Virus record (IMG/VR): IMGVR_UViG_3300042731_008138
Span: 1-62,463 of that record
Direction: 5' to 3' (one strand)
From: a virus
Length of the DNA stretch: 62,463 nt
Shown: one piece after another, positions 12,728 to 54,116 of the stretch
Layout of the letters: every line of letters begins with the position of its first letter
How positions within the stretch are numbered: the first letter of the stretch is position 1
Notes under the pieces: model-generated
What the model was told of the DNA's origin: nothing
Database searches by the model: none
The model's input: only the letters and a program-made list of their open reading frames with translations
Program-made: the position numbers and the translations under genes

Positions 12728-13479
12728 TGGCAGCTTATGGAGACATGGACCGGGGGATCCCCGGTATGAAATCTGGGAGTTATTCCCGGGTAGAGAGCAA
12801 AGTTGCTCAGGAAGAGATTGCCTTTGGCCTGCCTGTCTTTGGCTATATTGGTGAGGACGGCAAATGTTGGGGGTACAAGAACGATGTGGGCAAAATCGTT
12901 TTTGATGCTGATTTTGAGGCCAGTAACGTCATCACCATTACGGTGAATACCGTTGCTGCAGATGATGTTACTTACGCTTCTAGCCATGATAATACTATGG
13001 ACCTGTTATTGGCTGCAGTACAGGCTTTGGAGGGGGTGGAAGCTGCTCTGGACTCTACAGATACGGATAATCGGACCCTGCTCATTCGTGTGAAGGGTGA
13101 GACTGCAGCTGTGACTGAGGCCGTTGTAGGTGGGTCCGGACAGCCGGACGGAACTATCACTTATGGTTCAGGACAGATATTCCTGGGCGTATCTCTGTTC
13201 ACTCAAAAAATGCCTTATGACAGTTCTGCTGCGTATGATGCAGAGGACGCGGTCAATGTTATGGTGGACGGATGGATCAGGGGAGAGACGGCTGCAGCTG
13301 TAAGTGTCAATGGAACTCCCTATGTAGTTACTACTGAGGGAGCCAACCTTGGTAAGTTCAGCACTTCCGGTGAGGAACTTACAGGGTACTATACAGAAGA
13401 TGTGGCTACCGCAGGCAATGCAGAGCTCCGGGTTCAGGGCCAGGCCCCTATGACCTATGGCGAAATTGCTTTTGCTTAA
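12724..13479 (+). CDS. Head decoration/cement-like structural protein with inserted domain
   Basis: 251 residues between protease and major capsid genes, the usual place of decoration proteins. The flanks (MKSGSYSRVESKVAQEEIAFG and YYTEDVATAGNAELR) resemble structural cement proteins such as the P22 gp24-like family. Residues ~55-145 are an insert, K-V-F-D-A-D-F-x-A-S-N through Q-P-D-x-T-I-T, that is also present in the tail sheath at 17071-17350. Confidence 0.65.
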   Translation: MMAAYGDMDRGIPGMKSGSYSRVESKVAQEEIAFGLPVFGYIGEDGKCWGYKNDVGKIVFDADFEASNVITITVNTVAADDVTYASSHDNTMDLLLAAVQALEGVEAALDSTDTDNRTLLIRVKGETAAVTEAVVGGSGQPDGTITYGSGQIFLGVSLFTQKMPYDSSAAYDAEDAVNVMVDGWIRGETAAAVSVNGTPYVVTTEGANLGKFSTSGEELTGYYTEDVATAGNAELRVQGQAPMTYGEIAFA

Positions 13480-33398: not shown

Positions 33399-33470
33399 TT
33401 AACGTTTCAATCTTCCGGACTTCGGACCGGAATTGTAGTTTAATCCCCGGTTGCCCCGGGGACCCGTCAC
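33399..33470 (-). other. Structured spacer with two GC hairpins
   Basis: The 182-bp space 33293-33474 has TTCCGG/CCGGAA (8-base loop, ~33413-33432) and CCCCGG/CCGGGG (~33446-33462) hairpins with no T tract on the coding strand. CACTTAACG at ~33397-33405 is a half-site of the TACTTAA operator. It could be an RNA element or weak terminator. Confidence 0.4.
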
Positions 33471-33474
33471 CAAA

Positions 33475-33864: not shown

Positions 33865-33956
33865 TGGAAAAGCATGGGCTCTAAAACATAATGCCACAAT
33901 ATCTGAGCAATTAAAGTCCCCATAAAAATCCCCAAAATAATCGGCCACCATTTCAT
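33861..33956 (-). CDS. Membrane peptide of 31 residues
   Basis: ATG 33956 follows GAAGGAG. MKWWPIILGIFMGTLIAQILW is one membrane span. The leader GGGGAAACCCGAAGGAGTG is shared with the gene at 34237. Confidence 0.55.
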   Translation of the reverse strand: MKWWPIILGIFMGTLIAQILWHYVLEPMLFQ

Positions 33957-34045
33957 TCCCCACTCCTTCGGGTTTCCCCCAGCCTATCTCATCAGTGCCG
34001 GGAGGCTATCTCCGGCAGACCGGCACAAGGCCGGTTTCGATAACA

Positions 34046-34237
34046 TTAACAGTAAAACCACAGGTCGTCGTTAGACACTCTATACTCTATGTGTGGAAAA
34101 TAAAGCCGAAACCAGCCTAACGACACAACAAGAAATCCTTCTCCTGTTTCAGATCTTGCTTCCATGGGCCGAAAGGTAAAAGATTTCTCAACACAAATCT
34201 GAAAAACGATATTTCCGTTCCTATTCTTAATCTTCAT
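34046..34237 (-). CDS. Hypothetical protein, 63 residues
   Basis: First gene behind the 34266-34373 promoter region. Sequence KNRNGNIVFQICVEKSFTF with an aromatic beta-like end. RBS AAGGAG. A hairpin-rich stretch (ACCGGC/GCCGGT, 33957-34045) follows it. Confidence 0.6.
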   Translation of the reverse strand: MKIKNRNGNIVFQICVEKSFTFRPMEARSETGEGFLVVSLGWFRLYFPHIEYRVSNDDLWFYC

Positions 34238-34265
34238 TCCTCACTCCTTCGGGTTTCCCCTTGTC

Positions 34266-42353: not shown

Positions 42354-42857
42354 TCAATCCTCCTTATTGCGTTTGTTCAAGGCCGCATTCATATCATCGG
42401 AGTTCATCTGATCTCCGTTGTTGTGATTTCCATTGTAATAACCACGTACATAGAGAGTGACCAGATTATCAATTTCTCGCTTGCGGTTTTCCATGCTGTT
42501 GACTGCAGCTTCCAAGTGGTACACATCCTTTTTTGCCTGATTCAGCTCATCCTCCGCTTTCATCACTCTTTTGTGGACAGTGACTTCAGAAGAAATAGAA
42601 GCCTCAGTAATTTTTACGTCTCCGGGCAATCGGCCTTCTCTCCTGTATTCCAACTCCACTTCTGACTTGACAAAATTGTACTGAGCCTGAGCCTGGTCTT
42701 TTGCTGACTTAGCCTCCGCCAGTTTGTCTGCCCAATAGTGATATATACTGGCATGTTCAGCAGCCTCCTCTTCCAAAGCATAGCGGTTAATCCGCATGTC
42801 TTCTCTCAAATCCCTTTCTTTCATCCGCATGTCTTCTCTCAAATCCCTTTCTTTCAT
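42354..42857 (-). CDS. UvsY-like recombination mediator (tentative)
   Basis: 167 residues. HASIYHYWADKLAEAKSAKD then a long helix with Lys/Glu and LEAAVNSMENRKREIDNLVTL resemble helical phage recombination mediators, matching its place before the ssDNA-binding protein. The N-terminus carries an 11-residue tandem duplication (MKERDLREDMR). ATG 42857 is seven bases after AGGAGG. Confidence 0.6.
   Translation of the reverse strand: MKERDLREDMRMKERDLREDMRINRYALEEEAAEHASIYHYWADKLAEAKSAKDQAQAQYNFVKSEVELEYRREGRLPGDVKITEASISSEVTVHKRVMKAEDELNQAKKDVYHLEAAVNSMENRKREIDNLVTLYVRGYYNGNHNNGDQMNSDDMNAALNKRNKED
42790..42857 (-). repeat. 33-bp tandem duplication at gene start
   Basis: The 33 bp coding M-K-E-R-D-L-R-E-D-M-R occur twice in tandem with no difference, so each copy supplies an ATG. 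The first has the proper RBS. Confidence 0.9.
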
Positions 42858-44009: not shown

Positions 44010-46655
44010 TCATGCGGCTTTCTTCAGATAGCCACAATCTTCCATTTCATGCCAACTACCATTTACAGCAGAACGTTCTTTCTCAAGGATGAGAGGGGCA
44101 ATGACCCAATCCCACTGTTCTTCAATATTTTTGGATCCCAACCGATGTACCATCTCATCCAATGCTTTTTCTTCCCCAGGGACCACGTCAAATAACATAG
44201 AGTCATGAACCTCAGCGATGGGCTTGCTCTTCATGTTCCGCTCCCGGAGCTCTTTTTCAATACAGTGCAGGGCCCACAGCTTCACGTGAGAGGCCGGACC
44301 CTGAACAGGATAGTTTACCACCTGAGTAAAATCCATCGGCCCGTAGCACCGGAAACCAGTCACCTGATCAATAAAGCCTTTTCGCTCATATTGGTCATAC
44401 AATCTTAATCTTTTCTTACCATATACAGGAAACCGCCTGCCCCAATATTCCTGATCAAATTCAATCATCCTGGCTTCAAATTCTTTGAAGGTTCGGATCC
44501 CCTTGGGCCAGCTTCTGTTGCGTACTTTTTTGAGATGCTCCTTCACTTCTTCAGGAAGTTGCAACCACATCCCAACAGCTGCTTTCCTTCCTGAAGATCC
44601 GTAAATGGAGGGAAACACATATCCATTTTTGGCAGCTTGTCTGGCTGCCTTGGAAATCTTCTTGGGGAGGGCGTCCCACTCCTCTTTGGTGTAGTACAGG
44701 ATTTCCATTGCGGTGTCCCGGTGCATGTCCTTGGACAGGTCCCGGCAGTATTCCAACCAAGCCGGATCCTGGAACACACATCCAGCAATTGTTACTTCCA
44801 GGGCCTTGTAGTCATATTCCACCAGCCTGTTCCCGGGGGAAGGCTTCAGAATGGATCTGGTGATGTACTGTCCTTCAGCACTGCGTTTGGGCACGTTCTG
44901 AAAATTGGGGGAATCGGAGGAGCTCCGGAAGGTGTCCACATTATTCAGTTTGAAAAAGGGGTGTACTATGTAGTCCACTTCCTCTTTATAAAATCCGTTC
45001 AAATAAGTGTCCCTGAGTTTTTTGTTCTTTCTGTATTTAATGAGATGGTCACAGAAGTTTGAATTGAAGCTTTCCAATGTAACCTCATCCACCTTCTTTA
45101 TCTCCTCCCCATCAACCCCTTTTCTCCCTTTGTACCCCAAGATATTGTACAGCAGTTCGGACAAATTGGGCTCACTGTTGGGATTGAATTCACTCTTTCT
45201 TTTCCACTTGGATACTTCCTCAGAATCCATTATCAGGGTTTTGTATCGCTTCATCCTCCGGGTGAGAGTCTGCCGATGTTTCTCAGCCAATTCTGTATCC
45301 AGCCGGATCCCGTTGGTGTGAAGGCGGGCAAGAGTCTGGGTGCCGTCAATGAGTAGTCTCAACCCCTTTTCTCTGTGACCCTTCAACACGCTCTTCTGAT
45401 ACTCATATTCTTTGTAAGTGAACAAGGCATCCTGCGCACAATATTTGAGCAGCTTGGCTGTGGGGGCTTTGTGGATAGAATTGAAGGCATTCTTTCCAAA
45501 CTTTTTCTTGTCATGTTGATTGCTGCTGAGAAAGTCATCCAATTCCACATCATAACCCATTATCCCAAAATGGACATAGGAAAGAAACTTCAACCCGGTC
45601 GGCTTTTTGTTATTGAGACAATGAGCTCCCAACAAGGTATCCCATACCCAATTTTCCACCCTGTATTTTTCTTCCCCGGGGGGCGCTGCTCTTTCAAAAG
45701 TCCAGTTGTCTTCAAAATCCAGTTTGTGGGCTATCTTACCCACCTTGGGATTGGTCAGGAAGGCTTGCCAAACGGACCGAAACCGGACCGAATCAAAGAA
45801 CGGGAACGCATACCCCATCTGGCCATCACTAATACCAGCACATACAATCCGGTGACCCTCTCTATGGGGTTTCACTCCAGTGGTTTCATAATCGAATACC
45901 ACGGGCCGGTTGCCTTTCTGGATTTGCTCAATCCACTCAATGGCTTGGCCTTCCTCCTGTGTGAACTCCACATCTTTGTCATAGTGATGTTCGTAGAAAA
46001 AGCCCTCACCGCATTTCACAGCCCTTTTGATATGCCGTTTCCAAATCCTCTTTAATCCCTGATTTATTTCCTGGCCGTCATTCCCGCGGGTTTTGCGGAG
46101 AATGTAGGCAGGATGATAGGTGGGGCAGATGTAACAGCCCAGCTCCTGATCTGGGATTCTATATCCAAAGAAGGCACTGGTTTCAATTCCAGTGATTCTT
46201 CCTGCCTCCATCCTGTGTCCAATCAATCCTTTCAAAGCGGTGGTGCCGAAAGTGATAATCACTTCCGGCTTGTATTCTGCTATGGTTCTGAGTAATTTAT
46301 GACGGCAGGAAGCTATTTCAGCAGCTGTGGGGGTCCTGTTTTTGGGAGGTCGGCAAACTACAGCATTGGTTCTGAGACAATCCCCATTGAAACTTATTCC
46401 TATTTCATCCAAGACATCTTTGATGAGTCGGCCAGAAGGGCCCACAAAAGGGATCCCCTTGTCATCCTCTTTTTTTCCAGGAGCCTCTCCCACCAGCAAT
46501 ATTTTCTTGTGTCCTCTTCCATAAGGCTTCATGTTGGGATGAATACATGATCGGTCCAGAGAACAGGCATCACACCCTATTTTCTTTTTGGAGCTCCGGG
46601 CCTTGCTGACTGAGGGGTTCTCTCCGGTCCCAAGGTCAAAATATCCAACCCCCAT
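44010..46655 (-). CDS. Family A DNA polymerase with N-terminal uracil-DNA glycosylase domain
   Basis: 881 residues. Residues ~25-215 are a family 4-type UDG: CDACSLDRSC, LVGEAPGKKEDDKGIPFVGPSG (two parts), HPAYILR. Residues ~245-430 are a 3'-5' exonuclease (VFDYETTG, AHKLDFEDNW, YCAQDALFTYKEY). The polymerase has motif A DYKALEV (usual DYSQIEL), motif B RQAAKNGYVFPSIYG and motif C VHDSML. UDG-polymerase fusions are known in SPO1-type phages. Start codon overlaps the clamp stop. Confidence 0.88.
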   Translation of the reverse strand: MGVGYFDLGTGENPSVSKARSSKKKIGCDACSLDRSCIHPNMKPYGRGHKKILLVGEAPGKKEDDKGIPFVGPSGRLIKDVLDEIGISFNGDCLRTNAVVCRPPKNRTPTAAEIASCRHKLLRTIAEYKPEVIITFGTTALKGLIGHRMEAGRITGIETSAFFGYRIPDQELGCYICPTYHPAYILRKTRGNDGQEINQGLKRIWKRHIKRAVKCGEGFFYEHHYDKDVEFTQEEGQAIEWIEQIQKGNRPVVFDYETTGVKPHREGHRIVCAGISDGQMGYAFPFFDSVRFRSVWQAFLTNPKVGKIAHKLDFEDNWTFERAAPPGEEKYRVENWVWDTLLGAHCLNNKKPTGLKFLSYVHFGIMGYDVELDDFLSSNQHDKKKFGKNAFNSIHKAPTAKLLKYCAQDALFTYKEYEYQKSVLKGHREKGLRLLIDGTQTLARLHTNGIRLDTELAEKHRQTLTRRMKRYKTLIMDSEEVSKWKRKSEFNPNSEPNLSELLYNILGYKGRKGVDGEEIKKVDEVTLESFNSNFCDHLIKYRKNKKLRDTYLNGFYKEEVDYIVHPFFKLNNVDTFRSSSDSPNFQNVPKRSAEGQYITRSILKPSPGNRLVEYDYKALEVTIAGCVFQDPAWLEYCRDLSKDMHRDTAMEILYYTKEEWDALPKKISKAARQAAKNGYVFPSIYGSSGRKAAVGMWLQLPEEVKEHLKKVRNRSWPKGIRTFKEFEARMIEFDQEYWGRRFPVYGKKRLRLYDQYERKGFIDQVTGFRCYGPMDFTQVVNYPVQGPASHVKLWALHCIEKELRERNMKSKPIAEVHDSMLFDVVPGEEKALDEMVHRLGSKNIEEQWDWVIAPLILEKERSAVNGSWHEMEDCGYLKKAA

Positions 46656-47701
46656 TATTCATTCACCGTTGCCATTATCTGGGTGAACTGTTCTGACTGG
46701 AATAATACAGCGGGAGTCTCCCCCTCCTTGTAATAGAAATTGGGGACCTTGCGGACAGCCTCAATCAGGAAATCCGCATCAGCTTTGAAATGAAATGGGT
46801 TTTCGATCTCCAAGGCCTTGGGAAAAGGGACCCGCTCACGGATTTTCCCTGATACTCTGTGAGATTCCAACACCATCTCTTTGGGAGAAACAGTGATGGA
46901 TATAGCTGAGAAATTGTTTATGTCCTCACTCAGGACGGCAACCCGATCAATTACTTTATCCAGGTCTTTTGGGAGAGCACACTGAATATCGTTTTCTTCT
47001 ACTTTTACCATTTCCCTCAGAGCCAGCATTCTTTCAGTTGGATAATATTCATCCTCTTTCCGTTTAGCTGAAAATACCACTCTTTCTTCATTACGGAAAT
47101 GAATCCAGCTTTCTGTCACACTGTACTCAGTAATCTTTCCCGGAAGTCTAAGAAGTTCAGTCCATGCCGGATCATCCACCCAGCAGGTATCAAAAGATTC
47201 ATTAAGATCATAGTAATTCAACCGGATTCCATCTGTACTCATCATGAGCTTATCAGTAATAAATATTCCCCGGGTGCTGGAAGTGGAACAGGAAATCTTA
47301 CACAGCCGGATTCCCTCCCAGAAATCCTTGGGGACGGATTTCCACTTCAGTTTAGAGATTCCCAGCCCCTCCAGATATTCCTGAAGGTCAGATTCCACAG
47401 AATTGATGGTAACTTCCGCATTGCCGGATTTCATTGCTACCCCACTCTTTGCCGGTTCGAACTGAATGTCTTCCTCAGGTAGTTTTTGCAACAGGCGGAA
47501 CAGGTCCATCCCTTTGAATACTCCTTTTACCTCCCCTGAATCAAAGGGGACTGATACAGAAATGCTGTCATTGTAAGAATGGATGGACTCTCCAGTAAAT
47601 ACGATGGCATCAGCACCCTCAATGATGGTGGATCCGTTCTCCACCCCAGGCATTACTTTCTTTACAGCAGAAAGGGCCTCTGTCTTTTTGATTGTAATCA
47701 C
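46655..47701 (-). CDS. DNA polymerase sliding clamp (DnaN-like)
   Basis: 348 residues from GTG 47701, which has AAGGAG at six bases and gives the family-like start ITIKKTEALSAVKKVMPGVE. ATG 47749 is an alternative adding 16 residues. Three repeated clamp domains are suggested by KGMDLFRLLQKLP, NAEVTINSVES, YYPTERMLAL, FKADADFLIEAVRKVP. The processivity ring for the polymerase next to it. Confidence 0.78.
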   Translation of the reverse strand: MITIKKTEALSAVKKVMPGVENGSTIIEGADAIVFTGESIHSYNDSISVSVPFDSGEVKGVFKGMDLFRLLQKLPEEDIQFEPAKSGVAMKSGNAEVTINSVESDLQEYLEGLGISKLKWKSVPKDFWEGIRLCKISCSTSSTRGIFITDKLMMSTDGIRLNYYDLNESFDTCWVDDPAWTELLRLPGKITEYSVTESWIHFRNEERVVFSAKRKEDEYYPTERMLALREMVKVEENDIQCALPKDLDKVIDRVAVLSEDINNFSAISITVSPKEMVLESHRVSGKIRERVPFPKALEIENPFHFKADADFLIEAVRKVPNFYYKEGETPAVLFQSEQFTQIMATVNE

Positions 47702-47751
47702 AATGTACTCCTTATTTCCAAAATAGCAAGCGGGTTCAACCGCTTTCATTC

Positions 47752-48474
47752 TTATTTCCTTCTCATACTTTCAATCTTATTCAGGACATCCTGATAATAT
47801 TCTCTTTCCCAAATATCACGACCATGAGAAATTCCACCTTCTCCACCTATTGCGCCATCGACTCTTAATCTGTTTCTGTCCCATCTGCCATTTCCCGTCA
47901 TTCCATATACTGGATGAACTGGAAGGCCATACTTTGCCAAATAAGAAAATATTTCTTGCGTTGTCCATTTCATAAGCGGTCTACATTTGTGCTCTGTTGA
48001 TATTCCGTGATACCATAAAGATTTTTTTCTTATTCCGGATTCCGCAGCCCTTACTCCTAAAACACATTTATTTATCCCCGTAATTTTTTCAAAATTCCTC
48101 ATTGTTTTCAGCTTTTCTGGATTCCCGGTTTCTGAATAAAATACTTCAAAATAGCTATTTATTTTGTATTTTTCTAAAAACATGTTTCTTACAAGATCAT
48201 TATTAAAATCATAAACAGCATTTCTTGACGAAGGATCACGCACGAAACTGACCAAAGCGTTTGTACATTTTGCTCTATAAGCCAAATGGGCCAAAACTGT
48301 AGAATCCTTTCCCCAAGAGATCGAAATATAATAATCAGAAGTGCAGAATTCTTTTATATGAGAAATAGCCAGATCTTCTTTTTTATCAGACATGCAATAC
48401 GCTAAATCTGCTTCTTCTAATTCTGCCCATAATTTTAAATCAGCCTCTGTATGCTTATCAGTCACAATCAACAT
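47752..48474 (-). CDS. cysH: CysH-like PP-loop ATPase associated with type IV-B CRISPR
   Basis: 240 residues. PP-loop at 53-58 (SWGKDS) followed by TVLAHLAY; later VLGVRAAESGIRKK, KCRPLMKWTTQEIFSYLAKYGLPVHPVY, GMTGNGRWDRNRL match the PAPS-reductase/CysH-like family (shown here in pieces). The C-terminal ECGLH redox motif of true PAPS reductases is absent, so sulfate reduction is unlikely. ATG 48474 follows GGGAGG. CysH-like genes are a known companion of type IV-B cas genes; role unknown. Confidence 0.8.
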   Translation of the reverse strand: MLIVTDKHTEADLKLWAELEEADLAYCMSDKKEDLAISHIKEFCTSDYYISISWGKDSTVLAHLAYRAKCTNALVSFVRDPSSRNAVYDFNNDLVRNMFLEKYKINSYFEVFYSETGNPEKLKTMRNFEKITGINKCVLGVRAAESGIRKKSLWYHGISTEHKCRPLMKWTTQEIFSYLAKYGLPVHPVYGMTGNGRWDRNRLRVDGAIGGEGGISHGRDIWEREYYQDVLNKIESMRRK

Positions 48475-48727
48475 AAAGCCTCCCTGAATCATCCTCTTGA
48501 ATTGGAACTAAAACAGAGAGGTCGGAAATGTCCCTCCCGATTGTAGACCTATGCACATCAAATACTCTAGCCAGCTGTGCACGAGTCCATGAATGCTTTT
48601 TCAACAGCTCTTCAATCATCCTACATCGAAGAAATTTTGTTTCAAACTTTGACAAATCAATTGAACATTTCATCTGTGTAAGATCGAGCTTTTTCTCAGG
48701 CTCACATCTCATGTGCTGATTTAGCAT
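48458..48727 (-). CDS. HTH protein inside the cas cassette, 89 residues
   Basis: Residues ~38-70 (LLKKHSWTRAQLARVFDVHRSTIGRDISDL in pieces) form a helix-turn-helix of the DeoR/HTH_11 type. ATG overlaps the csf3 stop (ATGCTAA) and its stop overlaps cysH by 17 bp. Could regulate the operon or bind DNA with the complex. I do not know it as a standard IV-B component. Confidence 0.7.
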   Translation of the reverse strand: MLNQHMRCEPEKKLDLTQMKCSIDLSKFETKFLRCRMIEELLKKHSWTRAQLARVFDVHRSTIGRDISDLSVLVPIQEDDSGRLYVDCD

Positions 48728-49398
48728 GGAATGGCAACCTCCATAAACGTTTCAGGATGCCAGTAAGGAGGAAACGCCCCTCCGTAAGAATGACGAAATC
48801 CAGTAGATCCCTTTGCGGCTTCAACCTGGATTGTTTTCATTAAAACTTTTTTTCCTTTATGCATGGCAAAAATAGAATTATCTTCTTCGAATTCCTTGTA
48901 TTCCCAAGATTCAATTCGGCCGTATCCATAATGTCGGCAATGCCCAAGGGCTGTGATTTTTTTTAATAATTTATTGATTTCTTTTTTGTCACCTCGAACA
49001 AACCAACAAACTTTTCTTACAAGCCGAACACGAAGAGGAACAAAACGGCTTTTATATGGTCCTGACGAAGTAAGGAGTTTTTTTCGCTGTGATTCGTGAA
49101 TTGCAAGAGCAAGAATATCCGTGTCAAATCTTTTTGCTTGATGATCTGACCATTCAGCATGAACTTCTCCGAGAATAGGATCAGAAGAACAATAAACATC
49201 ATGTCCACAAATTGTTCTTTTCGCTAAAGGAATCGGCGGTTTTTCAATTTGTGACAACGGAATGTCCCTAGTCATTTTCCTAGCCTGTTTCATCCCCATT
49301 CTTAAGGCAAGTTCATATTCTAATAGGCTGTCAATTTTAGGAGGTTCCCCGCAAAGCGGGGAAACCAAGTTGCATGTTACCTTCCAATTTTTTATCAT
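48721..49398 (-). CDS. csf3: Type IV CRISPR Cas5-like protein Csf3
   Basis: 225 residues. N-terminal strand WKVTCNLVSPLCGEPPKIDSLLEY is the RAMP start seen in Csf3. ALGHCRHYGYGRIESWEY carries the Gly-rich loop, and the C-terminus AKGSTGFRHSYGGAFPPYWHP is Csf3-like. Cas5 caps the crRNA 5' end in Class 1 complexes. ATG overlaps the csf2 stop by 4 bp. Confidence 0.82.
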   Translation of the reverse strand: MIKNWKVTCNLVSPLCGEPPKIDSLLEYELALRMGMKQARKMTRDIPLSQIEKPPIPLAKRTICGHDVYCSSDPILGEVHAEWSDHQAKRFDTDILALAIHESQRKKLLTSSGPYKSRFVPLRVRLVRKVCWFVRGDKKEINKLLKKITALGHCRHYGYGRIESWEYKEFEEDNSIFAMHKGKKVLMKTIQVEAAKGSTGFRHSYGGAFPPYWHPETFMEVAIPC

Positions 49399-50567
49399 AA
49401 TTGTTCTTCAAAGAATGATAAAACCGAATCATAATCATTTCTGATAATACTCATTCCCTCAAAATCTTTGAAGATGTCTTCTGGAGATTTTGCTGCTTTA
49501 ATTTTATTTCCAATAGCCTTGGCTATAGATTTTCCATCTTTAGAATTATCAACAGCAATTCCAATATATCGCTGAACATCAATCAAAGATCCATCAGGCT
49601 GCTTTTCTTCAAAAATATAAATAAGTGAATCTTTAACTTTCTTAATTATCGGGAAAGACATCTTTGTAGGAAATGCCTTCTCAAGCCAAGAAACAAATCT
49701 GTCTTTATTTTTTTCTACATGCTGAATATATTCCTGAATCAGTTCATCAGGATCTTTTTCATGCCCAAACCAATCAACAAGTCCGGAGATCCAGATATTT
49801 GATTTCATTTTGCCATGTCCTATCCTGGCTGACCCTCCAATAATTCCATCAGATTTCTGCCAACGCTGAATGCAAAACAAAGTTGCCCCTATCTCAAGTG
49901 GAGATACATTATATAGGATAAGATCATGATAAAATAAAGTCCCAGGAACTATTGATTCCCCAGCATAAATCATCAGATTACTTTCTTCCTTTTTTTGAAG
50001 GTCCTTTATCATGGATACAGAATCCTTCATTCTTCCGGCATCCCCTCTTGTATATTGATATTTGCTTATGAAATGCTGCGCTGGAAGAAGGGACTGAACA
50101 GGAATTTCATAATCTTCAGGTATCAATTTTGGAAGAAGTTTCTGATTTTCCAGACAAATAAGAATTCCGCGGGAAACAAATAAAGATCCCCCCACAACCT
50201 GATTTTTCAAACTCCCGCCAAGAAGTCTGAATAATGGAGAGACCTCCTGCAATTCCGCAATCAAAGGAATATTATCAGTAGTACTGGATTCAGAAAGACT
50301 GCCGCCTGTAAACATATAATTAGCCTGATCAATAGATAATTTTCCTCTTAACTCACAGACATCAACAAGATGAAGGGCTCCTGGCTCCCTAATGATTTTA
50401 TGCCGGAGAGCATTTCCAGACAAGACTGGAATATCAACAACATTTCCTTCATGAAGAACTTTTTCTCTATTCAGAATAGATTCATTACCGGAGACGCCCA
50501 TCATATGAGTAATAGGAGAAACAGCCTCAGAAAGAAAATGGATTTTGCAAGTTCCTATTTGTTTCAT
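49395..50567 (-). CDS. csf2: Type IV CRISPR Cas7-like backbone Csf2
   Basis: 390 residues from ATG 50567 (AAAGGGGG six bases upstream; ATGA overlap with the cas11 stop). Diagnostic block: ISPLTH-like VSPITHMMGVSGNESILNRE, VVDIPVLSGNALRHKIIREPG, then SIDQANYMFTGG and FRLLGGSL. GGSARIGHGKMKS is the Gly-rich loop. Csf2 forms the filament on guide RNA. Confidence 0.88.
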   Translation of the reverse strand: MKQIGTCKIHFLSEAVSPITHMMGVSGNESILNREKVLHEGNVVDIPVLSGNALRHKIIREPGALHLVDVCELRGKLSIDQANYMFTGGSLSESSTTDNIPLIAELQEVSPLFRLLGGSLKNQVVGGSLFVSRGILICLENQKLLPKLIPEDYEIPVQSLLPAQHFISKYQYTRGDAGRMKDSVSMIKDLQKKEESNLMIYAGESIVPGTLFYHDLILYNVSPLEIGATLFCIQRWQKSDGIIGGSARIGHGKMKSNIWISGLVDWFGHEKDPDELIQEYIQHVEKNKDRFVSWLEKAFPTKMSFPIIKKVKDSLIYIFEEKQPDGSLIDVQRYIGIAVDNSKDGKSIAKAIGNKIKAAKSPEDIFKDFEGMSIIRNDYDSVLSFFEEQL

Positions 50568-50998
50568 TTTGAACCCCCTTTCTTTTTCTGATTCCAAATC
50601 TGCCGGGCATAGACCAAAATAATATTATACTTTTTCTCAATAATATGAAGAAAAAGATCCTGCCATTCCCTCGGCTTTGTATTCATAGATTCAAGAAAAG
50701 CAAGAAGACTTTCCTTTGAGGCCACGGCCCCAGGATCTGCTTTGATGAATTCCAGAACAAGATTTATGAATTCTTCATAATCCCCTCCACACTTCTTGAC
50801 AGCGGAAATAAGACCATTCCCTATCCGTTCCCATAAGGTCTTCCGGTCAAAATCATCAGAGAACAATTCCGGTAAGATTGAACACATCTTTATGGCCTCG
50901 TCTCTTACCACCCTTTCTTCCATCTCCGGAAGTTTTCTCGAGGGGTCTATCAATCCCACTAACTTCTGTCTGAATTCTTGTGCTGACAATTGATTCAT
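50564..50998 (-). CDS. cas11: Candidate small subunit (Cas11) of the type IV-B complex
   Basis: 144 residues from ATG 50998 (AGGAAGAG upstream); the frame extends to 51106. All helical (FRQKLVGLIDPSRKL, VVRDEAIKMCSIL, EFINLVLEFIKADPG), size and position between csf1 and csf2 fit the IV-B small subunit. Sequence family not otherwise recognised. It overlaps the csf1 end by 143 bp, which is unusually long. Confidence 0.65.
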   Translation of the reverse strand: MNQLSAQEFRQKLVGLIDPSRKLPEMEERVVRDEAIKMCSILPELFSDDFDRKTLWERIGNGLISAVKKCGGDYEEFINLVLEFIKADPGAVASKESLLAFLESMNTKPREWQDLFLHIIEKKYNIILVYARQIWNQKKKGGSK

Positions 50999-51692
50999 TT
51001 CTACACTCTTCCTTTCCGGGGCATATCCATGCCGCCAGTTCTCCCAATGGGGAGGAAAATATATTACACCACTCTTCAAGTGGAGATTCACTACCATAAA
51101 ATTCAACTGTGTTTTTCCAGTTGATAAATTGATCAGGATTTGTCAGGGACTTTTTCCCAATAGCCGCAGAGGCAATGAGGGCACAATCCAGAATGCGTCG
51201 AAGTTGGACCCTATCAACAATGATTTCTTTTTCTTCAAGCAAAACTGAATACATATCCCGATCATAATTAACCGGTGCCCTGAAAATAAGATGTTTCTGT
51301 CCACTGTCTGCAAGAATAATAGAGAATGGAGGTTTCGGGGGATCAAAAAGAATTGTCCGACAAAAATCAAGATGCCGTTTTGTAAAAGCTTTTTTCCAAT
51401 CGAGAGTGAGAATCCATGAATAACAACGTGGTGCTCCCCCACGTCCTTCTTTCACGGTTCCGTCAATCTGTTCTGTTTTTCCAAGTCCAGCAAAAGAAGA
51501 AATACAGCATCCACAAACAAAATTACTTCCCGGATTCTTCACAATATCCCGATTTGTAAAAGTCTCTTTTACATAATCTTGTTTCAAATAATGATTTCCG
51601 CATGGCAATCCACAGTAATAACATTTATTCTGACCATGATAATAATTTGATGAATCAAAAAGATAAGAAGCAGTTATCATTTTCTTTTTCAT
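50856..51692 (-). CDS. csf1: Type IV CRISPR large-subunit-like protein Csf1
   Basis: 278 residues. Zinc-finger Cys at 24, 27 (CYYCG) and 60, 62, 63 (CGCC) with FTNRDIVKNPGSNFVC between them are the Csf1 hallmark. Further LTLDWKKAFTKRHLDF and RAPVNYDRDMYSVLLEEKEI. Reduced Cas8-like protein. The basic C-terminal ~50 residues (SGDGRKGGKRRGHK) come from the region overlapping cas11. Confidence 0.8.
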   Translation of the reverse strand: MKKKMITASYLFDSSNYYHGQNKCYYCGLPCGNHYLKQDYVKETFTNRDIVKNPGSNFVCGCCISSFAGLGKTEQIDGTVKEGRGGAPRCYSWILTLDWKKAFTKRHLDFCRTILFDPPKPPFSIILADSGQKHLIFRAPVNYDRDMYSVLLEEKEIIVDRVQLRRILDCALIASAAIGKKSLTNPDQFINWKNTVEFYGSESPLEEWCNIFSSPLGELAAWICPGKEECRNESIVSTRIQTEVSGIDRPLEKTSGDGRKGGKRRGHKDVFNLTGIVL

Positions 51693-51853
51693 CTATTGCC
51701 TACCCATTCATCACTTCCGCACAAAGGACAGCAGCCTTCCTTCTGATCTTCTGGGCTGTACCACACATAGCAATGTCCACACTGTACAGGAACATTGAAT
51801 ATTTCAAATGCCTCTTCCATATCATTGGTCCAGTCTTTCTTTTCCTCTGCCAT
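51689..51853 (-). CDS. Zinc-ribbon protein leading the cas operon, 54 residues
   Basis: ATG 51853 follows AGGAGG of the promoter leader. Sequence MAEEKKDWTNDMEEAFEIFN, then QCGHCYVWY and GCCPLCGSDEW, a rubredoxin-like ribbon with CxxC and CxxC. Stop overlaps the csf1 start (ATGA). First gene of the transcript, so either part of the Cas module or a phage gene into which the cassette was fused. Confidence 0.75.
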   Translation of the reverse strand: MAEEKKDWTNDMEEAFEIFNVPVQCGHCYVWYSPEDQKEGCCPLCGSDEWVGNR

Positions 51854-51907: not shown

Positions 51908-52693
51908 TCAATCAATCTCCTTTATTCTGATCTTTTCTCCGATAAGATTTCCGTCTGGGCCAATCTTGTTCAGTCGGCCAACAGTCTCATCAGTCAGAAA
52001 GAAATGCGTGTTCCCATTCTTGCAGAACTTCACCTTGAAATATGAACAGTCTGCCTCATTCGCATGGTTGATTTTTGCAAGAGTTTTCAGTGTCTTATCT
52101 GGAACAGACTTACCATCTAGGATATAACAAACCTTTTCTAGATCATCGGTTATCGTCGGCCCACCGGACCAATAGTTATACATCATGAGATAATCATATG
52201 TCTGAAGGATAAAAAACTTGTCTACACCGTTGTTGTTCCGCTTCTTTTCCCTTGAAGCAAACCCTGAACCGGTTTCATAAGATCCGGTTATCAGTTTTTC
52301 ATAGACACGCTTGCACATCAGCCGGATATTTTCATAAATCATAGACTTCAAACTGGTAAGCCATGCTTCCGCGTTTTCCGGCGTGAAGTCCGGTGTTTTC
52401 AGCTCCTCAATCTCTTTCATCATCTTGGCATACTCGGAGCAAAGCATGTACTTTTCCAAAAAGTAGAGTTTGACAAGATAGCGCCAGAGATACTGGTCAA
52501 TGTATTTTTCTGTTCTGGCCTGATGATAGTTGTGGAACTCCCAGCGGATGTTGTAGGGCCTATATCCGTTGACATCTTTAAGGTTATCAGATATTTGCTG
52601 ATCAAGATCAACAAACTCTTCCATCTGCCGCAAGAATTTCAACTTAATCCGGAAGAGGTCTTCTGCTGTAAGTCGCCTTGTAATTTCATTCAT
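51908..52693 (-). CDS. DUF4942-like protein
   Basis: 261 residues from ATG 52693 (GGAGG eight bases upstream). The C-terminal part (YILDGKSVPDKTLKTLAKI, YFKVKFCKNGNTHFFLTDETV) is the DUF4942 pattern, a family found near methyltransferase or plasmid/phage DNA genes, function unknown. N-terminal region is helical. Confidence 0.7.
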   Translation of the reverse strand: MNEITRRLTAEDLFRIKLKFLRQMEEFVDLDQQISDNLKDVNGYRPYNIRWEFHNYHQARTEKYIDQYLWRYLVKLYFLEKYMLCSEYAKMMKEIEELKTPDFTPENAEAWLTSLKSMIYENIRLMCKRVYEKLITGSYETGSGFASREKKRNNNGVDKFFILQTYDYLMMYNYWSGGPTITDDLEKVCYILDGKSVPDKTLKTLAKINHANEADCSYFKVKFCKNGNTHFFLTDETVGRLNKIGPDGNLIGEKIRIKEID

Positions 52694-52733
52694 AAACAAA
52701 TCCTCCTTCTTTTTGATGAACCATGCTTATCAA

Positions 52734-54116
52734 TTATATAACCTCACTACGTTTCCTACTGTCCAGATATTCCCGCCCAATATCCCTGCAGTGAAGGACG
52801 GCAACCTGGTCCAGGAACACCTGACCCTCTCTTTCCAAAACCTTATTCCATCTGATGATTCCTCTTTCCCGCTCCTCCGGTTCCTGATTAAGGGCTATCA
52901 TTTTGGTGACGTGACCTCCCTTTCTGTAATCTTCAGCCACGTGGGTCAGGTTCACATCTCCTTTATTCCCTGCCCGGTTTACCTGTGAAGCGGTAATGAC
53001 GGCACAATTCAATTCCTGAGCCAGTCCTCTCAATTTCTGCCATAGATCGTTCAGCTGATTTCTGAGCTCCCCTTTGATGTCAAACCTCATGATGTCAGCA
53101 TAGTCTATAACAATCATGTCCGGAACGATCCCCTCATAATACATACAATTATCTATGATGTTTCTAATATCTGTCAAAGAGGTACTGGAAGCTGGCAATG
53201 CAAAGATTCGAACTCCGCCGGTAACTTGTTGTCTATATTTTTTTTGAATATTGGCTATATTTCCCATTTCGGTGTCCACGCCATCCCGGGTTTCCGTCCT
53301 CATTTTCACTTCCCACTTTCCTTCCTCAGCAACCTCTGAAAAATAAGGGATTGACACCTGGGAGGTAGTCAAAGGTTTGCCCCGGAAGGCTTGCCATGCC
53401 CGGCGGAGTATTCTATTTTGAGTCATCTCCAGGGAGAAAAAGAAAGAATGATATCCCATCAGGGCAGCATGATGAGAAGTGTAAAACAGGCTGTATGATT
53501 TTCCCATTTTTGGACGGGCCAGGAATGATACAAAGTCTCCTCTGACAATTGGGCCCACATGGGATCCCAGGACCCCAGGATATGTGAATAATATTTCATC
53601 TTTATCTCCAAAGGCCTGAACAATGGGGGCAGTATCCCTAAGAATATCAACCCCGGAACCTTTGTTGGATCCAATCCGTTTGAAAGATGATATGAGATGC
53701 TCCCCGTTTTCCACGTCCCGGGAATCAATGGCTGTTTGAAGTTGTTCTTTAATCTGTACCAGTTTTCTGATCCGGAAATATTCTGAAGCAGAGCTTACTG
53801 CATACTGAACATTGTGGAGCTCCACAGAATCATCACTCAACTTTTTGAGAAACTCAGCGATGAGCTCTGTATCATCTTCATTGGGCACCTGATTTTTCTT
53901 TCTGGTGTACAGATCCTCAATGTTTTTCCCGGGGGCCTCCTCTATCTGATCAAAATATTCCCACACCCAAGAGGCCAACAGCCGGACATAAGGAGACTCA
54001 AACAACACAGGATCTGCTGTCCCCTTCATCTGTCTCAGAAACTCTGTTGAGGTGATTAAATATGACATGATCTTTCTTTCTTCGGACAAGTCAATCCGGT
54101 TTCTAGTATAGCTCAC
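52734..54116 (-). CDS. DnaB-like replicative helicase
   Basis: 460 residues. Walker A ARPKMGKSYSLFY at ~195-207, FFSLEMTQNRILRRAWQAF, Walker B MIVIDYADIMRF, and CAVITASQVNRAG, VAEDYRKGGHVTKMIAL are DnaB C-domain motifs. N-terminal ~120 residues helical. GTG 54116 overlaps the upstream stop; ATG 54068 possible. Unwinds DNA for the primase encoded at 679. Confidence 0.85.
   Translation of the reverse strand: MSYTRNRIDLSEERKIMSYLITSTEFLRQMKGTADPVLFESPYVRLLASWVWEYFDQIEEAPGKNIEDLYTRKKNQVPNEDDTELIAEFLKKLSDDSVELHNVQYAVSSASEYFRIRKLVQIKEQLQTAIDSRDVENGEHLISSFKRIGSNKGSGVDILRDTAPIVQAFGDKDEILFTYPGVLGSHVGPIVRGDFVSFLARPKMGKSYSLFYTSHHAALMGYHSFFFSLEMTQNRILRRAWQAFRGKPLTTSQVSIPYFSEVAEEGKWEVKMRTETRDGVDTEMGNIANIQKKYRQQVTGGVRIFALPASSTSLTDIRNIIDNCMYYEGIVPDMIVIDYADIMRFDIKGELRNQLNDLWQKLRGLAQELNCAVITASQVNRAGNKGDVNLTHVAEDYRKGGHVTKMIALNQEPEERERGIIRWNKVLEREGQVFLDQVAVLHCRDIGREYLDSRKRSEVI

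Follow-up and report, generated by a model that had tools for sequence, protein, structure and literature searches.

The closest described counterparts of the locus analysed here are the type IV-B CRISPR (clustered regularly interspaced short palindromic repeats) systems represented by the Csf complex of Mycobacterium sp. JS623 (PDB 7jhy) and by plasmid loci of Rhodococcus and Gordonia. These systems consist of the csf1-cas11-csf2-csf3 set with an adjoining CysH-like gene, and have no array, Cas6, DinG or adaptation genes. An IV-B filament of Csf2 and Cas11 has been shown to form on heterogeneous RNA of uniform length; Csf1 and Csf3 were in the same sample, yet were not resolved (PMC7937560). 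What IV-B does is a long-standing question, to which the CysH-like enzyme is believed to hold the key (PMC8175902, PMC7937560). This partner is without the catalytic cysteine and has been proposed to modify nucleic acid via an ATP alpha-hydrolase activity (PMC8175902). Here we analyse what is almost certainly a type IV-B effector operon of a myovirus, judging from the sequence of IMG/VR record IMGVR_UViG_3300042731_008138, which was examined over its full 62,463 nucleotides (hereafter, the window).

Virus-borne IV-B is already known. Fuxivirus, a tailed virus of Bathyarchaeia, carries an IV-B core and a CysH-like gene, as the window does; compared by its description, it differs in being an archaeal virus and in having a mini-CRISPR array, which the window lacks (PMC10848311). 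The tailed Skermania phage SPI1 (KR011061, ORF40-44) encodes the small subunit, csf2, csf3 and a CysH-like protein in the same order, with a Csf1-like open reading frame (ORF) adjoining, but its Csf2 is only ~25% identical to that of the window and clusters with actinobacterial plasmid loci in our tree. The SPI1 operon (L003, 4852-8482) is annotated as hypothetical proteins only. PMC10848311 also cites earlier prophages and several lytic phages with IV-B, and, from Al-Shayeb et al. 2022, type IV loci among the CRISPR loci of lytic phages, a phage carriage like that of the window. The sequence-only reading of the window had regarded IV-B as described mainly from plasmids and some prophage-like elements, a view that these virus-borne cases qualify.

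Gene content and identity of the operon

Six overlapping genes, csf1-cas11-csf2-csf3-HTH-cysH (HTH, helix-turn-helix), occupy positions 47752-51692 of the minus strand, as read from the open reading frames and their translations. Neighbouring frames from csf1 to cysH overlap or abut, consistent with a single operon. The six genes and the gene directly upstream are as follows.

51692-51853, minus strand: zinc-ribbon-like protein of 53 amino acids with a CxxC...CxxC pattern, directly upstream of csf1 (translation)
50856-51692, minus strand: csf1, Cas8-like large subunit, 278 amino acids, cysteine-rich N-terminus (PADLOC, NCBIfam)
50564-50998, minus strand: cas11, small subunit, 144 amino acids (PADLOC)
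49395-50597, minus strand: csf2 (Cas7), core residues 11-309 plus a C-terminal extension (PADLOC, Foldseek)
48721-49398, minus strand: csf3 (Cas5), 225 amino acids (PADLOC, NCBIfam, PDB match)
48458-48727, minus strand: small helix-turn-helix protein, 89 amino acids (HTH_11, E 2.2e-5, just under the curated cut-off)
47752-48474, minus strand: CysH-like PP-loop ATPase, 240 amino acids, motif SWGKDS (PF01507, E 2.7e-11)

The sequence-only reading had named these six genes, in this order and on this strand, and the profile searches bear it out, with E-values of 1e-37 to 1e-100 for the four Csf/Cas11 proteins. The PADLOC type IV models match Csf1 (PDLC01574, typeIV_Cas8, E 4.6e-75), Cas11 (PDLC01570, typeIV_Cas11, 2.9e-54; PDLC01573, 6e-35), Csf2 (PDLC01572, typeIV_Cas7, 8.3e-100), and Csf3 (PDLC01727, typeIV_Cas5, 2.6e-37). 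NCBIfam models match Csf1 (TIGR03114, 4.4e-19), Csf2 (2e-9), and Csf3 (TIGR03116, 1.1e-12), all with scores below the curated cut-offs, and Pfam gives no significant match for these three proteins. Against the PDB by sequence, clade profiles match Csf2 to IV-B 7jhy (9.5e-7), Csf3 to type IV-A 7xfz (0.0036), and, weakly, Csf1 to the type IV-A Csf1 of 8rc3 and 7xfz. The cysteines that the earlier reading listed in Csf1 (24, 27 and 60-63) are largely in place, at positions 24, 27, 60, 62 and 63; residue 61 is not among them, and position 31 is an additional cysteine.

The predicted fold of Csf2 also supports the assignment. The AlphaFold model is of moderate quality (predicted local distance difference test score, pLDDT, 68), and its type IV matches in Foldseek (8rc3, 7xg1, 7jhy) rank before type III Csm3, with E-values of ~1e-11 for the best, a type IV-A Csf2, 9e-7 for the IV-B Csf2, and ~1e-5 for Csm3. 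The four-gene core could in principle be another RAMP (repeat-associated mysterious protein) system, of type III, IV-A or IV-C, misread as IV-B: Pfam is silent on Csf1 to Csf3, the NCBIfam scores fall short, and the profiles used are not IV-B-specific. This is very improbable given type IV profile matches down to 1e-100, a fold that ranks type IV first, the lack of Cas10 and DinG, and relatives outside the branch described below that lie mostly in CysH-bearing operons. The outcome that the sequence-only reading had said would count against it, Csf2 and Csf3 products missing the Cas7 and Cas5 profiles or fitting another RAMP system better, was thus not what the profiles and the fold gave.

The large subunit is Csf1, not the Cas10-like HD protein of type IV-C (PADLOC). 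None of the six operon proteins matches a profile for DinG, Cas6/Csf5, Cas1 or Cas2 (NCBIfam, PADLOC), and PADLOC finds no match to its Cas and DinG models in ten further window proteins, seven of them within ~16 kb of the operon. IV-B was described in the earlier reading as lacking Cas6, DinG, Cas1/2 and usually, though not always, an array; all of these are absent from this locus. The subtype is assigned as IV-B because of this gene content and the closest Csf2 relatives.

Two features of the coding layout deserve mention. The cas11 match to PDLC01573 begins at residue 37 of the mechanically called ORF, which places the start of cas11 at ~50998 rather than at 51106. From there, the start of cas11 overprints the 3' end of csf1 by ~143 nucleotides (50856-50998). 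This overlap is out of frame, indicating that the C-terminal extension of Csf1 overprints cas11. Out-of-frame overlaps of ~130-143 nucleotides occur in five members of the branch (the window, L002, L007, L008 and L009), and in the other members the overlap is short or lacking. In addition, the Csf2 alignment shows ~90 extra C-terminal residues in the window (about 310-400; 49395-49667) that occur in no relative; they have no Pfam match and a low pLDDT in the AlphaFold2 model.

The 53-residue protein has no Pfam family match; it may be a component of the system or simply its neighbour. Its gene, unmentioned in the sequence-only reading, is the reason why the range given there for the system extended to 51853.

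A branch assigned to type IV-B in viruses and spirochaetes

Pattern scans of IMG/VR recovered twelve further viral loci (L002, L007-L012, L016-L018, L023 and L024) and a Treponema metagenome-assembled genome (MAG; L019); a Peptococcaceae MAG contig (L020) is the same locus as L012. A mixed-family Csf2 alignment was too divergent as a scan query and was dropped. One more locus (L032/L039, genome G782) was recovered by searching 393 Spirochaetota genomes. Together with the window there are fifteen distinct loci, in 13 viral records and two spirochaete genomes. By our own reading of the frames, L032 is flanked by portal, terminase, capsid-like, tape-measure-like and integrase-like genes, indicating that it is a prophage. 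The order csf1-cas11-csf2-csf3 is identical in all loci except L023, which is cut at the contig start so that only partial csf2, csf3 and cysH are visible; in L032, cas11 sits between csf1 and csf2 and has no separate listing.

The Csf2 proteins of the branch are ~47-72% identical to that of the window, whereas those of plasmid IV-B loci are ~22-32% identical. In a Csf2 tree of 28 rows, fourteen branch sequences form one clade (support 100/100) on a long stem. The groups nearest to the clade are CysH-bearing loci and the single IV-A reference is an outlier, in a tree whose deep forks are not resolved and which includes no IV-C reference. The loci outside the branch that were opened, leaving aside the partly retrieved L029 and L034, have CysH-like or PAPS (phosphoadenosine phosphosulfate)-reductase-family genes nearby. 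The sequences form a well-supported branch, probably of IV-B, found here in viruses and otherwise only in cellular genomes, with at least one of the cellular copies in a prophage. The window and its branch differ from plasmid IV-B also in the CysH motif (SWGKDS, not SGGKDS), and the window further differs in the HTH gene between csf3 and cysH and in being virus-carried.

The nearest relative by Csf2 sits in a Spirochaetota genome. This prophage locus (L032/L039) shares 72% identity in Csf2 and 76% in Csf3 with the window and has the same csf1-cas11-csf2-csf3-HTH-cysH order, but the prophage is unrelated and its Csf2 is without the extension; no further window gene was matched in the 80 kb searched. 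As an attempt at host assignment, the portal protein of the window gave equally weak matches in spirochaetes and Firmicutes.

The position of the operon varies among carriers. It lies in the replication module in the window and L010, near the terminase in L007 and L008, between TerL and portal in L018, and beside head genes in the spirochaete prophage. L010 shares DnaB and SNF2 genes with the window; L018 shares portal and head genes, and the operon sits elsewhere there. Most other branch records have little or nothing in common with the window beyond the operon. These differing placements in unrelated viruses suggest a mobile cassette that passes from phage to phage; phages could be a major home of IV-B that existing records understate.

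Embedding in a replication module would fit a complex that covers or processes RNA of the phage itself or of its host, controlling translation or RNA stability and unrelated to conflict; so would the HTH partner found in several viruses and the non-specific RNA binding of an IV-B homologue (PMC7937560). We consider such a role improbable, as patchy presence and shifting genomic position suit accessory conflict genes better than housekeeping ones. It is this mobile, patchy distribution that leads us to favour a role in conflict.

The CysH-like enzyme, radical-SAM loci and possible mode of action

The CysH-like gene overlaps the HTH gene, and its product matches the Pfam PAPS_reduct family (PF01507, above cut-off). 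The PP motif reads SWGKDS in 10 of 10 aligned branch members and SGGKDS in the aligned relatives outside the branch. In an alignment of ten clade members, no column that is invariant or 90% conserved holds a cysteine. Taken together, the motif and the lack of a conserved cysteine indicate that the protein is not a PAPS reductase; the catalytic C-terminal cysteine of a true CysH was looked for and not found. The AlphaFold2 model (pLDDT 84.5) matches PAPS reductases, ATP sulfurylase and tRNA thiolases about equally in Foldseek, as a PP-loop fold. A second, conventional PAPS-reductase-family gene is present upstream of the operon in L017 (7303-8631, immediately before csf1) and L011 (1093-2325).

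The gene between csf3 and the enzyme is changeable. It encodes an HTH protein in the window, L002, L007, L008 and L032, an HD-domain protein in L011 and L017, a SpoU-type methylase in L018, and proteins without assigned family in L009 and L019; L024 has a ParB_N protein and a second PAPS-reductase-family protein, and the slot is empty in L023. For the HTH protein, a role as operon regulator or nucleic-acid-binding adaptor is probable.

Intact CysH was not found in L007, L012/L020 and L016. At these loci, radical-SAM (S-adenosylmethionine) genes follow csf3, or csf3 and the HTH gene, and in L012 a gene with a B12-binding domain comes first. Of the twelve viral records that extend beyond csf3, nine carry CysH without a radical-SAM match above the Pfam cut-off, and three carry radical SAM and lack CysH. 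Such a split would arise by chance in 1 of 220 cases if the records were independent, which they are only in part. L009 has one partial radical-SAM match, below cut-off and far from the operon. The radical-SAM proteins of L007 and L012 are 60% identical, and an IMG/VR scan for their family, which detects close relatives only, returned no contigs other than those two.

In L007, the frame KWRREYYPDILARIKK, closed by a stop codon (13091-13147), corresponds to the last codons of a branch cysH and abuts the stop codon of the radical-SAM gene (13098). We read this 3' remnant as the trace of a physical replacement of cysH; L012 and L016 show no such remnant near their radical-SAM genes. In the Csf2 tree, L012 and L016 group with the CysH-bearing L011 and L017, and L007 stands apart, so that cysH was probably lost at least twice, in separate events.

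Two branch records hold comparable gene pairs: in L016 (9700-11522) a ParB-like gene stands with a radical-SAM gene, and L024 (2658-4538) pairs a ParB_N gene with a DUF3440/PAPS-reductase gene. They are a possible second example of the same enzyme exchange beside an IV-B operon.

What looks new is the branch, with its own CysH motif, its changeable gene before cysH and its three radical-SAM loci without cysH. The main text of the 2025 classification (PMC12669027) mentions neither CysH nor radical SAM, and the literature searched, with the subscription papers Al-Shayeb 2022 and Moya-Beltran 2021 outside its scope, holds no report linking radical SAM to IV-B.

RNA-modifying enzymes occur in both the PP-loop and the radical-SAM families. 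We propose that a Csf2/Cas11 filament would form along a short RNA, with Csf1 and Csf3 capping its ends. The record has no array, and the RNA could come from host CRISPR RNAs (crRNAs) or other small RNAs. The complex would recruit a co-transcribed enzyme, here the CysH-like PP-loop ATPase without conserved catalytic cysteine, that may modify the bound nucleic acid or a partner during infection, either to counter defences or in rivalry with other mobile elements. For at least one relative, the place of CysH would have been taken over by a B12/radical-SAM-like enzyme; a partner replaceable in this way would make chemical modification, rather than sulfate reduction, the common denominator. We put the joint probability of IV-B identity and this mechanism, an RNA-loaded filament that recruits a modifying enzyme in conflict, at roughly 0.45.

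Several points weigh against this proposal. Neither the repeat search nor the stretch before csf1 yielded a guide RNA. The radical-SAM cases number only three, and one of them, L016, is an 11.7-kb fragment whose match is barely at the Pfam cut-off. Other genes vary at the same slot, and the radical-SAM genes could be cargo, not functional substitutes.

The search for a CRISPR array or mini-array in the window returned only low-complexity or coding tandem repeats as spaced repeats. An operon with no array, Cas6 or nuclease would also suit a sponge for guide RNAs, in which the filament sequesters host small RNAs such as crRNAs without sequence-specific targeting and so shields the phage from RNA-guided defence. 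A recombinant IV-B ribonucleoprotein (RNP) does bind heterogeneous RNA of uniform length (PMC7937560), and such a role has been proposed for plasmids (PMC8175902). The idea leaves the near-universal CysH-like enzyme unexplained, as well as the swap of cysH for another enzyme instead of its plain loss, and we regard it as rather unlikely.

Slightly less likely still is RNA-guided interference with other mobile elements, a transcription block of the IV-A kind that would draw its crRNAs from the host. Csf1, Csf2 and Csf3 are homologous to the DNA-targeting IV-A complex, and IV-A3 is able to obtain spacers in trans (reviewed in PMC11656645), but the locus has no repeat, Cas6 or DinG, and crRNAs were not enriched by the recombinant IV-B complex (PMC7937560).

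Within the proposal of an enzyme-recruiting filament, a more specific and tentative form, which we consider doubtful, is that the Csf complex of the virus-borne branch serves as a carrier with an exchangeable chemistry module, a PP-loop ATPase in most members and a B12/radical-SAM-like enzyme in the others, one of which retains the putative scar of the lost cysH, and that the output is RNP-directed modification. If true, the output would be neither cleavage nor transcription block, and the 'strictly conserved' CysH would be replaceable. The loss of cysH with a radical-SAM gene in its position offers a natural experiment, in which the traits common to the two enzymes, such as substrate or Csf binding site, should reveal the output of the system.

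Carrier genome and minor features

The window encodes a large terminase, portal, tail sheath, tape measure and baseplate wedge, a set that identifies the carrier as a myovirus. It had been called an apparently complete phage genome, a completeness that its IMG/VR class, linear and with no end repeats, does not establish. Within the replication half, the operon is bordered by DUF4942, DnaB-like and SNF2 genes on one side and, on the other, by a sliding-clamp-like gene followed by a fusion of uracil-DNA glycosylase and PolA. The annotated neighbours, of which the first three lie outside the system and the last flanks it, are as follows.

44010-46655, minus strand: uracil-DNA-glycosylase domain fused N-terminally to a family A DNA polymerase (PF03167, 3e-29; PF00476, 9.9e-37)
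46655-47749, minus strand: sliding-clamp-like (DNA polymerase) protein (TIGR00663, 4.8e-4, weak)
51908-52699, minus strand: DUF4942 protein (PF13708, 7e-20)
52734-54116, minus strand: DnaB-like helicase (PF03796, 1.3e-14)

A homologue of the DnaB-like helicase flanks csf1 in virus L010, too (38% identity by tblastn).

Three candidates for an array or guide RNA were set aside. The 18-bp tandem repeat at 134-328 lies within a coding frame; its approximately eleven in-frame copies, at the left end of the record, encode an SDGVNR-like hexapeptide repeat. At 42790-42857, a 33-bp repeat codes for a repeated peptide. The stretch immediately before csf1 is the 53-residue gene, and its predicted RNA folding is no better than that of shuffles (z +0.86). 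The count of matches in a promoter scan was likewise not above shuffles.

Two self-cleaving ribozymes in the window exceed the Rfam gathering scores, a twister of type P5 with 46 bits and a type-II hammerhead with 42.6 bits. The pair lies on the minus strand at 33415-33471 and 33978-34042, ~500 bases apart in a region of small genes. Near the ribozymes, a 28-nucleotide repeat (96% identical) occurs at 33952-33979 and 34233-34260.

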